A DNA stretch of 37,159 nucleotides from an uncultured bacterium (GTDB lineage Bacteria > Cyanobacteriota > Vampirovibrionia > Gastranaerophilales > Gastranaerophilaceae), in NCBI GenBank assembly GCA_902798645.1, contig CADBXV010000008.1, positions 1 to 37,159 of the forward strand, written 5' to 3'. The notes below the pieces were generated by a model. That model did not search any database, was not told where the DNA came from, and was given only the letters and a program-made list of their open reading frames with translations. Each line of letters starts with the position of its first letter. Positions within the stretch are counted from its first letter, which is position 1. This document shows positions 3,662 through 25,006 of the stretch, in pieces. The position numbers were made by a program, and so were the translations under genes.

Positions 3662-3694
3662 TGTAGGGTGGGCAAAGCGAATGCGTGCCCACCA
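3662..3694. repeat. TGTAGGGTGGG-type palindromic repeat
   Basis: An element with stem GGTGGGCA (3667-3674) and TGCCCACC (3686-3693), an 11-nt loop and a TGTAG flank. Related copies lie at 22565-22597 and, inside serB, at 24422-24453. The flank and loop (AAAGCG..GCG) are conserved as well as the stem, so this is a repeat family and not chance hairpins. Confidence 0.85.
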
Positions 3695-20920: not shown

Positions 20921-22072
20921 ATGAAGGATAAAACTTTTTTGATGATTCCTGGACCAACACCGGTGCCGGAGAGTGTAATGTTAGAGATTGCAAAACATCC
21001 GATTGGACATAGAAGCGGTGAGTTTTCAAAGATATTGCATAATGTTTATGAAAACTTGAAGTATGTTTTTAGAACAAAAAATGATGTTTTTGTTTATACT
21101 TCATCAGGAACAGGCGCAATGTGTGCAGCATTAGAAAACCTTGTTAACGAAGGTGACCATGTTTTATCGCTCGTTTTAGGTAACTTTGGTAACAGATGGG
21201 CAAAAATTGCCGAATCACGTGGTGCAATAGTTGATAAAATCGAAGTTCAAACCGGTGAAGTTATTGATCCTGACATATTGAAAGCAAAATTAGCGGAAGA
21301 TACAGAGAAAAAGATTAAGATTGTTACTCTAACTCACTCTGAAACTTCAACCGGCGCAGCAAATGATGTTAAAACGCTTTGTTCAATTATCAGAGAACAC
21401 GGAGCTTTGTCTGTTGTAGACGGTGTAACTTCGGTTTGTGCAATGGAATGTAATCCGGACGAATGGGGAATTGATGTTCTTGTTTCAGGCTCTCAAAAAG
21501 GGTTTATGATTCCTCCGGGATTGGCATTTTTAGTAGCTAACGAACGGGCATGGAAAGTTTATGAAGAATGTAAACATCCTTCATTCTATTGGGATTGGGG
21601 TGCATACAGAAAATCTGTTCAAGCTGATTCTACACCGTTTACTCCAGCAGTCAATTTGTTTGCAGGTTTGGATAAGGCTTTAGAGATGATAAAAGCTGAC
21701 GGAATAGAAAATATGAATGCTCGCCACAAACGTCATGCTATGGCTTTAAGGTCTGCAATCAGAGCAATCGGATTGGAACTTGTTGTAAAAGAGGATAAAA
21801 ATGCAAGCCATTCTATTACTTCTATTTACCCCCCGGAAGGAATTTCTGTTCCAGATATCAGAAAAGTTATCAAGGAAGATTTTGATGTACTTGTTGCAAA
21901 CGGTCAAAATGCTCTAAAGGACAAAATTTTCAGAATGGGAACATTAGGATTTGTTTGTGACAGAGATGTTATCTCAGCAGTCGGAGCGTTAGAGGCTACA
22001 CTTTACAAACTGGGTTATAAATTTGAACTTGGTAGAGGTGTTGCAACAGTAATAAAAGAATTAGCAGTATAA
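20921..22072 (+). CDS. Class V aminotransferase (serine/alanine-glyoxylate type)
   Basis: A 383-residue PLP enzyme of the alanine-/serine-glyoxylate aminotransferase group. The start MKDKTFLMIPGPTPVPESVM is the family signature. The PLP loop is near YTSSGTGAMCAALENLV, SVVDGVTSVCAMECNPDEWG carries the ring-stacking and Asp residues, and SGSQKGFMIPPGLAFL (about residues 187-202) contains the Schiff-base lysine. It sits upstream of serA and serB and no serC is in the window. It may therefore supply the phosphohydroxypyruvate transamination of serine synthesis, as reported for some class V enzymes; glyoxylate transamination is the alternative. A strong ribosome site (GGGAGGAG) precedes the ATG. 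Confidence 0.92.
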   Translation: MKDKTFLMIPGPTPVPESVMLEIAKHPIGHRSGEFSKILHNVYENLKYVFRTKNDVFVYTSSGTGAMCAALENLVNEGDHVLSLVLGNFGNRWAKIAESRGAIVDKIEVQTGEVIDPDILKAKLAEDTEKKIKIVTLTHSETSTGAANDVKTLCSIIREHGALSVVDGVTSVCAMECNPDEWGIDVLVSGSQKGFMIPPGLAFLVANERAWKVYEECKHPSFYWDWGAYRKSVQADSTPFTPAVNLFAGLDKALEMIKADGIENMNARHKRHAMALRSAIRAIGLELVVKEDKNASHSITSIYPPEGISVPDIRKVIKEDFDVLVANGQNALKDKIFRMGTLGFVCDRDVISAVGALEATLYKLGYKFELGRGVATVIKELAV

Positions 22073-22148
22073 ATTCAGGCGGGTATGTTTTACCGGCTTG
22101 AAAAGCTGACCTACTTGTGTATTTCGATTATATGAAATGGAGATTTTA

Positions 22149-22427
22149 ATGAAAGTAAAAGCATTATATTTAAATACTGCTTTAGTTGGAACAGCATTGG
22201 TATCAGGAATATTATTCTCGCATAATAATACTACAAAAATAAACCATTCAACAAGACTTCAAAATATGGATTATGTTAAGCAAAATAACAAAAATAAGTA
22301 TATTGAAACGCTTGAAATCGTAAATAAATCACAAGCTCCGAGGATAAGCCCTGAATATATCGATAATATATGGAAGACCAAAGCAAAAGAAGTAAAAGAT
22401 TCAATAGAATTAACAATGAAAAAGTAG
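22149..22427 (+). CDS. Small single-pass membrane protein, unknown
   Basis: I do not recognise this 92-residue protein. It starts at ATG 22149 with GGAG 6 nt upstream; the earlier in-frame ATG at 22137 has no site. One N-terminal hydrophobic segment (ALYLNTALVGTALVSGILF) is followed by a hydrophilic Asn/Lys-rich tail of about 65 residues. It could be an uncleaved signal-anchor protein. It lies between the aminotransferase and serA, with a repeat-rich gap downstream. Confidence 0.6.
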   Translation: MKVKALYLNTALVGTALVSGILFSHNNTTKINHSTRLQNMDYVKQNNKNKYIETLEIVNKSQAPRISPEYIDNIWKTKAKEVKDSIELTMKK

Positions 22428-22481
22428 CTTGTGACATGTAGTTCGGCATTACCATGTTGACAGTTTGAGGGTGATTAAATA

Positions 22482-22503
22482 TGTCGGCTTTACCAAACCG
22501 ACA
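22482..22503. repeat. TGTCGG palindrome
   Basis: TGTCGG (22482-22487) and CCGACA (22498-22503) flank CTTTACCAAA. It is one of three different short palindromes in the 189-nt gap upstream of serA, which otherwise holds nothing recognisable. Confidence 0.7.
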
Positions 22504-22514
22504 ATATATAGAAA

Positions 22515-22540
22515 GTAGGTTGGACATACTTGCCCAACAA
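22515..22540. repeat. GTAGGTTGG palindrome
   Basis: GTTGGACA (22519-22526) and TGCCCAAC (22531-22538) pair with one mismatch and are preceded by GTAG, like the element at 3783-3799. Confidence 0.65.
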
Positions 22541-22564
22541 TAAAAGAAGAAATAAATGAAAGCT

Positions 22565-22597
22565 TGTAGGGTGGGTAAAGCGTAAGCGTACCCACAG
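22565..22597. repeat. TGTAGGGTGGG-type palindromic repeat
   Basis: GTGGGTA (22571-22577) and TACCCAC (22589-22595) are separated by an 11-nt loop AAGCGTAAGCG. The same family as 3662-3694 and 24422-24453. It ends about 10 nt before the serA ribosome site. Confidence 0.85.
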
Positions 22598-22616
22598 TAA
22601 CAAACAAGGAGGATAA

Positions 22617-24206
22617 ATGAAAGTTTTAGTAACGGATAAAATAAACGAATCAGCAGGAAAAATAATTGAAGCAGTAGCAGAAGTTGATTTTTTGCCTACA
22701 ATGAGCGAAGAAGAATTAATAAAAGTTATACCAAATTACGATGCTTTGATGGTAAGAAGCCAAACTAAAGTTACTCCAAAAATTATAGAAGCAGGAACAA
22801 ATCTAAAGATTATAGGCAGAGCAGGTGTTGGTGTTGATAACATTGATTTAAATGCAGCTACTCAAAAGGGTATTATTGTTGTTAATTCTCCTGACGGTAA
22901 CACAATGGCTGCGGCTGAACACACTTTGGCTTTAATGCTTGCTATGGCAAGAAATATTGCACCTGCTGCAACATCAACCAAAGAAGGCAAATGGGATAGA
23001 AGTAAGTTTACAGGTTGTGAACTCTATAAAAAGACTCTTGGGATTATAGGCTTTGGTAAAATTGGCTCTCACGTCGGAGAAGTTGCTTTAGCTATGGGTA
23101 TGAAAGTTATAGTTTATGATCCATTCAGCTCTAAAGAAGTTGTTGAGAAAAAAGGTGCAGAATACATAGAAAATTTGGATAATTTCTGGGGCAGACCGGA
23201 TTTTATAACAGTTCATGTTCCTAAGAATAAAGACACCTTAAATATGATTAATAAAGACACAATAGCAAAGATGAAACAAGGTGTACGACTCGTTAACTGC
23301 GCTCGTGGCGGTATTATAAATGAAGCTGATTTAAAAGATGCTATTAACAGCGGTTATGTAGCAGGTGCTGCAATTGATGTTTACGAAAATGAGCCAAACA
23401 TTCAAGAGTGTCCGTTGATTCAATGTGAAAAGAATATTGTGCTTACCCCTCACCTCGGAGCTAGCACTCAAGAAGCTCAAATGAATGTTGCAATTGATGT
23501 TGCCGAACAAATAAAAGAAGTTTTATCGGGAGGATCCGCATCATCAGCTGTTAATATTCCGTCACTAAGACCGGATAGATTAGAGCCTGTTAAAGACTAT
23601 ATGACAATTGCTGAAAATACAGGTGAACTTGCTGTTCAACTTTCATCAGGCGCAATTAAATCAATTGAGATAGTTGCTGATGGTGATTTAGCTGATAAAG
23701 ATATTCAACCGCTTGAAGTTGCAGTTCTAAAAGGTGCTTTATCTTCAAGATTAGAAGGTGTAAATTATGTAAATGCTCCTGTAATTGCTAAAAATAGAGG
23801 AATTGATATTGTTTCATCTAAGTCAAAAGCAAAAACAACTTTTGCAGGAAGAATAACCGTTAAATTAATAACAGATAAAGAAACTACCGTTGTTGCAGGT
23901 GCGCTTGTAACAAAAGAAATTCCAAGAATTGTTAAGATTAACGAATATGAAACAAGTATAAGACCAGAGCATCACGTTCTAATTGTACCTCATACCAATA
24001 AACCTTCTATGATTGCTCAAGTTGCTCGTGTTATTGGCGAAAAAGGTATTAATATCGGTTCAATGAACGTAGTTCAAAAGAACGATAAACACGAAGAATC
24101 TATAATGGTAATTAATATCGATACAATAGTTGATGATGAAACATTGAAATTAATTGAAAAAATCGACGGTGTTCATAATCCTAAGTATGTAAAATTAACT
24201 GTGTAA
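22617..24206 (+). CDS. serA: D-3-phosphoglycerate dehydrogenase (long form)
   Basis: A 529-residue enzyme oxidising 3-phosphoglycerate to phosphohydroxypyruvate, the first step of serine synthesis. The substrate domain (MVRSQTKVTPKII) is followed by GRAGVGVDNIDLNAATQKGI, the nucleotide-binding GIIGFGKIGSHV (about residues 142-153), NCARGGIINEADL with the catalytic Arg, and PHLGASTQEAQ with the catalytic His. An ASB domain (about 315-450) and a C-terminal ACT domain (VLIVPHTNKPSMIAQVARVI, about 452-471, onward) make it the long form, consistent with allosteric control by serine. AAGGAGG precedes the ATG. Confidence 0.97.
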   Translation: MKVLVTDKINESAGKIIEAVAEVDFLPTMSEEELIKVIPNYDALMVRSQTKVTPKIIEAGTNLKIIGRAGVGVDNIDLNAATQKGIIVVNSPDGNTMAAAEHTLALMLAMARNIAPAATSTKEGKWDRSKFTGCELYKKTLGIIGFGKIGSHVGEVALAMGMKVIVYDPFSSKEVVEKKGAEYIENLDNFWGRPDFITVHVPKNKDTLNMINKDTIAKMKQGVRLVNCARGGIINEADLKDAINSGYVAGAAIDVYENEPNIQECPLIQCEKNIVLTPHLGASTQEAQMNVAIDVAEQIKEVLSGGSASSAVNIPSLRPDRLEPVKDYMTIAENTGELAVQLSSGAIKSIEIVADGDLADKDIQPLEVAVLKGALSSRLEGVNYVNAPVIAKNRGIDIVSSKSKAKTTFAGRITVKLITDKETTVVAGALVTKEIPRIVKINEYETSIRPEHHVLIVPHTNKPSMIAQVARVIGEKGINIGSMNVVQKNDKHEESIMVINIDTIVDDETLKLIEKIDGVHNPKYVKLTV

Positions 24207-24212
24207 TGTAAT

Positions 24213-24235
24213 GATGCAAATAATTGCACCCTACA
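24213..24235 (-). repeat. Inverted TGTAGGGTGC-type repeat
   Basis: On the minus strand this reads TGTAGGGTGCAATTATTTGC and a few more bases, with TGCAA/TTGCA arms. It shares the TGTAGGGTG head with the other repeats but has a different stem. It directly follows the serA stop. Confidence 0.65.
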
Positions 24236-24253
24236 AACTTGCTGTTTTATTTT

Positions 24254-24271
24254 GTCGGGTTAAAACCCGAC
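24254..24271. repeat. GTCGGGTT perfect palindrome
   Basis: GTCGGGTT (24254-24261), AA, AACCCGAC (24264-24271): an 8-bp perfect stem with a 2-nt loop in the serA-serB gap. Confidence 0.75.
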
Positions 24272-24302
24272 CTATATTTTTACGCTTATAAAGAAATTCT
24301 AT

Positions 24303-24320
24303 CCTCTCCCATTGGAGAGG
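24303..24320. repeat. CCTCTCC/GGAGAGG hairpin overlapping the serB ribosome site
   Basis: CCTCTCC (24303-24309) and GGAGAGG (24314-24320) form a perfect 7-bp hairpin. Its 3' arm is part of the purine run that ends AAAGG 7 nt before the serB ATG, so folding could partly mask or present the ribosome site. Confidence 0.6.
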
Positions 24321-24334
24321 GGAAAGGAAAATTA

Positions 24335-25006
24335 ATGACAAACAAACTTGCAGTATTTGATTTTGATTCAACATTAATGGATGGAGAAACTTTAGAGATT
24401 ATAGTTCGAGAGTTAGATTCCTGTAGGGTGGGTAAATCAGTAGCGTACCCACCACAAGGACTTGCAGAAAAAGTAAGAGCGATAACAGATAGAGCTATGC
24501 GTGGTGAGTTAGATTTTTTTGAGAGTCTGACAGAACGTGTATCTTATCTTAAAGGTTTACCTATATCAAAGGTTGACGAAATATGTCATAATTTACCGCT
24601 TATGAACGGTGCTGAAACCGTTGTTAAAGGTTTGCAGGAAAAAGGGTATAAAGTTGTGTGTTTTTCAGGAGGCTTTCGTAATGCAACAATATATTTCTCC
24701 AAAAAACTTGGCTTAGACGGAGAGTTTGCAAATATTCTTCACGTTAAAGACGGACTTTTAACAGGTCAAGTTGGTGGTGAGATGATGTTTAATATCAGTA
24801 AAGGAGAAATGTTAAAAAGACTTCAAAAACTTCTTGATGTAGAAGAAGAAAATACTCTTGCAGTAGGTGACGGTGCAAATGATTTGAGTATGTTTAAATA
24901 CGCTTCAAAAACAGTTGCTTTTTGTGCTAAACCGATAGTTAAAGAAAATGCAAGTATTATAATAGAAGAAAAGGATTTGTGTAAAATTCTAAACTATATA
25001 AATTAA
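24335..25006 (+). CDS. serB: Phosphoserine phosphatase with in-frame repeat insertion
   Basis: A 223-residue HAD phosphatase that releases serine from phosphoserine. Motif I is DFDSTLMDGET (residues 9-19), with ITDRAMRGELDFFESLTERV (cap) after it, motif II VVCFSGGFRNAT, a motif III lysine in SKGEMLKRL, and motif IV AVGDGANDLSMF. The ATG at 24335 is chosen for its AAAGG site; an in-frame ATG at 24224 would encode the intergenic repeats. Residues about 28-41 (DSCRVGKSVAYPPQ) are encoded by a palindromic repeat of the TGTAGGGTGGG family inserted in frame between the conserved GETLEIIVREL and GLAEKVRAIT. The rest of the protein looks intact, so it is probably still active. The 3' end overlaps the convergent radical SAM gene by 4 nt. 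Confidence 0.93.
   Translation: MTNKLAVFDFDSTLMDGETLEIIVRELDSCRVGKSVAYPPQGLAEKVRAITDRAMRGELDFFESLTERVSYLKGLPISKVDEICHNLPLMNGAETVVKGLQEKGYKVVCFSGGFRNATIYFSKKLGLDGEFANILHVKDGLLTGQVGGEMMFNISKGEMLKRLQKLLDVEEENTLAVGDGANDLSMFKYASKTVAFCAKPIVKENASIIIEEKDLCKILNYIN
24422..24453. repeat. Palindromic repeat inside serB
   Basis: GGTGGGTA (24427-24434) and TACCCACC (24446-24453) with loop AATCAGTAGCG and the head TGTAG. It matches the intergenic copies at 3662 and 22565 in head, stem and loop end, but lies within an open serB frame. Confidence 0.9.

Follow-up and report, generated by a model that had tools for sequence, protein, structure and literature searches.

How can a repeat that normally lies between genes become part of the reading frame of a metabolic enzyme, and what happens to the enzyme afterwards? 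The question is raised by serB in the window, by which we mean the whole stretch of 37,159 nucleotides analyzed here, where a palindrome also found in intergenic positions lies inside an open frame. The first-pass annotation had located it between genes at 3662 and 22565 and again within serB; its 11-mer, TGTAGGGTGGG, matches exactly at positions 3662, 22565, and 24422, the last one within the serB frame. The relevant features are as follows.

3663..3693 (+): intergenic REP belonging to the family of the serB REP
22566..22596 (+): second intergenic member of this family, with a mismatch at its last base; lies upstream of serA
22617..24206 (+): serA, encoding phosphoglycerate dehydrogenase and lying immediately 5' of serB (TIGR01327, 620 bits)
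24335..25006 (+): serB, phosphoserine phosphatase, 223 amino acids including the insert, start ATG at 24335 (open reading frame; TIGR00338 equivalog, 226 bits; matches to PDB 3m1y and 1f5s by sequence and fold)
24416..24457 (+): in-frame 42-nt insert encoding DSCRVGKSVAYPPQ, missing from 17 relatives and about 80 named SerB genes
24423..24453 (+): GTAG-type REP in serB, GTAGGGTGGGTAAATCAGTAGCGTACCCACC, with family copies in the same genome and in the genus
24423..24426 (+): GTAG head of the serB REP, recognized by sequence; the head is conserved in the REP class
24427..24434 (+): left arm, GGTGGGTA
24435..24445 (+): loop, 11 nt, AATCAGTAGCG, seen once among 101 copies
24446..24453 (+): right arm, TACCCACC

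An in-frame GTAG-type REP in serB

The element in serB spans 31 nt and is a palindrome headed by GTAG, with a perfect 8-bp stem and an 11-nt loop; GTAG-type REPs carry GTAG at one end of a palindrome of 20 to 40 nt, and positions 24423 to 24453 have this form. Together with about 11 further nucleotides it makes up the 42-nt insert, which is exactly in frame and free of stops. The block had at first been placed at 24413 to 24457. An in-frame block within serB does lie there, but codon alignment makes it one codon narrower, 24416 to 24457, and the roughly 14 extra residues that had been expected are exactly 14 when SerB is compared with every homologue checked. The window as a whole holds five GTAG-headed hairpins, versus 0 to 1 in shuffled sequence.

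The site is empty in relatives

Of 36 relatives, 17 have a SerB, and every one of these is without the 14 residues and has its flanks joined, as the first-pass annotation had anticipated. A scan of named genomes gave 80 SerB loci, those of rumen Gastranaerophilales being nearest, followed by Campylobacterota; the spacing from motif I to FFESL is short in 77 of them, and the other 3, which do not have the exact FFESL motif, are likewise short when read. Among all SerB compared, the insert is found in one genome alone. In the nearest relative (G008, locus L005/L064, isolate RUG12035), serA and serB stand in the same order and the site is empty. Because the insert is missing in all relatives with a SerB and the site is empty in the nearest one, the block represents a lineage-specific gain. 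The alignment with the nearest empty site shows no evident target-site duplication; that site is about 14% diverged and does not fix the exact insertion junctions.

The evidence for an occupied serB comes from one metagenome-assembled genome, which consists of 125 contigs, and the repeat is multicopy, so an assembly or binning artefact has to be considered. We regard this as hardly credible, because six diverged copies of a 31-nt repeat would probably not misguide assembly, both flanks continue serB in a gene order shared with relatives, and the insert keeps the frame exactly and brings in no stop.

A separate observation concerns positions 24218 to 24345, comprising the spacer from serA to serB plus the opening bases of serB, which differ from L064 by about 1%, while the adjoining genes differ by about 14% (p ~5e-8). 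This suggests a short, recent recombination tract, directly upstream of the REP insertion.

A dispersed family that is almost always outside genes

The 11-mer has six exact copies genome-wide, and its reversed control has 0; the 31-nt palindrome, with up to 3 mismatches, also has six copies in the genome. The reversed pattern gave 0 matches across 65 genus genomes, which excludes chance as the source of the palindrome copies. The family is present in 13 of these 65 genomes, with 49 copies in the sister species G077 and 25 in G019, and, at two mismatches, in 11 of 292 sampled genomes of the phylum, all from the taxonomic family of the window. Copies were counted by patterns with up to 3 to 4 mismatches, which miss more diverged ones. 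The further copies that the first-pass annotation had proposed to look for therefore exist both in the same genome and in the genus, and the repeat is dispersed, multicopy, and mainly intergenic, although the six copies of its own genome stay below the usual REP abundance (>100).

When open frames were read around 101 copies in 13 genus genomes, 100 copies proved to lie outside real genes and the serB copy was the only one inside. Around 12 further REP copies, the best of the remaining open frames were read as well and were judged to be short chance frames in spacers. A bacterial genome is mostly coding, and copies placed at random would fall mainly in genes; since nearly all copies nevertheless lie outside them, it seems that REP insertions into genes are nearly always lost.

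The serB copy itself stands apart, differing by at least 5 substitutions from every other copy, none of which stands out as its source. As RNA, the hairpin of the 42-nt insert is weaker than that of related 31-nt copies (z of -1.75 versus -4 to -5), because an inner two-base-pair stem has been lost. In addition, the family includes a TAA-bearing loop variant, AAAGCGTAAGCG, which would give an in-frame stop at the serB position, and the serB loop is without that TAA. We asked whether the serB copy had undergone a special stop-removing change; the case is weak, as 64 of the remaining 100 copies are likewise open in the frame of the insert and no special change was required.

Two further observations concern REPs elsewhere. 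In the spacer at 22067 to 22616, upstream of serA, the genome carries GTAGGGTGGG... and L064 carries GTAGGGTGCAATTATTTGCACC, different GTAG-REP families near the same place, pointing to probable REP turnover within a single spacer. A relative from the same taxonomic family, G211, has about 16 copies of the serB type of REP, and those listed are headed by ATAG and not GTAG.

SerB with the insert remains under purifying selection

As the first-pass annotation had stated, the HAD motifs are intact: SerB scores 226 bits against the TIGR00338 cutoff of 144, and all invariant motif residues are retained. The dN/dS against the closest relative is about 0.09, a pairwise value at a synonymous distance of about 0.76, and the changes on the own lineage comprise 25 synonymous and 11 nonsynonymous codons. 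By these comparisons, SerB remains under purifying selection. Seven of the 11 nonsynonymous codons lie within 8 codons of the insert, on both sides (hypergeometric p ~1e-6, post hoc), and one of the changes next to the insert is A to V where 77 of 77 other SerB have A.

The altered conserved residues beside the insert could also be read as the start of decay, with the enzyme inactivated by the insert and the frame open merely because the event is recent. SerB is found in only 17 of the 36 relatives and so appears losable; its absence from about half of them leaves room for weaker constraint. We consider decay quite unlikely, since synonymous changes predominate and most nonsynonymous ones flank the insert, the overall dN/dS is low, the motif residues have all been retained, no stop has appeared, and the score is well over the cutoff.

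The AlphaFold2 model (49 sequences, mean pLDDT of 87) places the insert between the helices of residues 19 to 30 and 43 to 55, with insert residues 32 to 40 below a pLDDT of 50 and most of the remaining protein high; the closest solved folds are 3m1y and 1f5s, the phosphoserine phosphatases of H. pylori and M. jannaschii. The model thus predicts that the insert forms a disordered loop linking two helices, which, together with the purifying selection, fits a tolerated loop.

Selection on the protein might instead have retained the REP-encoded peptide because it was taken into use. The serB loop, free of the in-frame TAA and unique among the 101 copies, and the flanking helix that changed alongside would agree with this, but the same frame is open in most other copies, the insert is predicted to be disordered, and it occurs in one genome only, which makes such recruitment very improbable. 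A related proposal, likewise improbable, is that the flanking helices adapted to the peptide through compensatory evolution and that the peptide now persists under maintenance as a functional loop specific to the lineage; if so, a REP would have been the donor of new protein sequence to a core metabolic enzyme.

RAYT transposases and the origin of the insert

REPs are thought to be non-autonomous elements that HUH tyrosine transposases (RAYT, or TnpA_REP) mobilize in the form of single-stranded hairpins; these enzymes recognize the GTAG head and the hairpin and cut at CT or CA dinucleotides nearby. The association of REPs with RAYTs has been published (Nunvar et al. 2010, PMC2817692), as has the cutting of DNA by TnpA_REP at CT or CA close to the hairpin (Corneloup et al. 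2021, PMC8266576). In serB, the dinucleotide CT stands immediately 5' of GTAG; being a published TnpA_REP cleavage dinucleotide (PMC8266576), it counts in favor of insertion by a RAYT.

The first-pass annotation had also suggested looking for a REP-associated transposase elsewhere in the genome. RAYTs are present, as eight matches to PF01797 (Y1_Tnp, RAYT-type), each close to a GTAG-REP of one family or another and often with the GTAG-REPs inverted around the gene; in the assembly, which is 94% complete, none stands beside the serB REP subfamily, and the eight matches accompany other REP families. In the relative G019, three REPs of the AAAAGCGTCAGCG subfamily, the sister subfamily of the serB REP, lie no more than about 310 bp upstream of the start of a RAYT (NF047646 REP_Tyr_transpos, 140 bits against a cutoff of 80); the three occur in both orientations on the 5' side of the gene, and none was seen on its 3' side.

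Our favored reading, to which we assign a probability of roughly 85%, is that a GTAG-type REP was inserted into serB by a RAYT, acting in trans or in the past, and was kept because it was in frame and in a tolerant loop. The REP would have entered serB in the lineage of a rumen Gastranaerophilales species, adding 42 nt, in frame and stop-free, where the chain turns from the first helix after SerB motif I into the second. SerB would then have tolerated the insert as a loop while adjacent residues changed, possibly in compensation, and the gene stayed under purifying selection. All three checks proposed at the outset, on relatives, further copies, and transposases, favored the original interpretation, which is supported overall.

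Entry without a RAYT, for example by template switching or by gene conversion from another REP copy during repair, is unlikely in our view. The missing cognate RAYT for the serB REP subfamily in the assembly speaks for it, and an error-prone repair tract might leave substitutions clustered to either side of it, as seen here (7 of 11); but accommodation of the insert explains that cluster too, the REP families of these genomes accompany RAYT genes, and TnpA_REP acts on GTAG hairpins in vitro (PMC8266576).

The RAYT genes show features of their own. The eight genes or fragments of the genome (G000, loci L024 to L031), one with internal stops, lie alongside at least five further GTAG-REP families. 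A RAYT clade, comprising L266 to L281 (16 genus RAYT genes, including L275/L030 of the same genome) together with L144 and L156, has a REP hairpin within the transposase reading frame itself, just 5' of the FQRR[FY] motif and encoding VGQVCPT or VGVETPT. The stem varies by subclade and is still palindromic (GTTGGGCARGTATGCCCAAC versus GTTGGGGTAGAAACCCCAAC), and the GTTGGGCARGTATGCCCAAC stem is the complement of a REP family with 33 copies in the genome. Such an in-frame hairpin was not found in the RAYTs of the other clades examined.

Relation to known palindromic elements

GTAG REPs lying wholly within open frames and encoding extra residues in enzymes were reported from several bacteria by Di Nocera et al. 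in 2013, who argued that insertions into flexible linkers or loops may be neutral (PMC3733652). The serB REP is alike in being a GTAG palindrome entirely within an open frame that adds residues to an enzyme. However, the earlier cases come from other species, many are in DNA replication or repair genes, and over half are dimers or groups (PMC3733652), whereas the REP in serB of this Gastranaerophilales genome stands singly and has an empty site in close relatives. What is new here is the host lineage and the pair of occupied and empty sites, as intragenic GTAG REPs have been known since 2013 (PMC3733652). With REP/RAYT (REPtron) systems (PMC2817692, PMC8266576) the case shares the GTAG head and hairpin, several REP families per genome, and REPs beside RAYT genes; it differs in its few copies in the own genome, the long 11-nt loop, and an assembly without a matching RAYT.

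The parallel with Rickettsia palindromic elements (RPE), drawn in the first-pass annotation with the reservation that family and lineage differ, holds as an analogy, for both are short palindromes in frame within protein genes and translated. RPE-4 and RPE-6 of R. conorii are CGTC-headed repeats (PMC3733652). Membership in the RPE was rejected because the serB REP is headed by GTAG rather than CGTC and just 1 of 101 copies of its family is in a gene, whereas RPE families recur in protein genes; its host, moreover, is not an alphaproteobacterium. With this occupancy, the serB REP is a rare tolerated event and not a repeat that recurrently enters proteins as RPE does.

Significance

In the literature searched, we found no mention of REPs for this host-associated lineage. 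The serB locus offers a clean, polarized case of a REP that has become protein sequence, with occupied and empty sites in close relatives, and it gives a rate of one tolerated gene insertion per 100 copies outside genes. In this rumen bacterium, a REP hairpin is read as 14 amino acids in an apparently working serine-synthesis gene.
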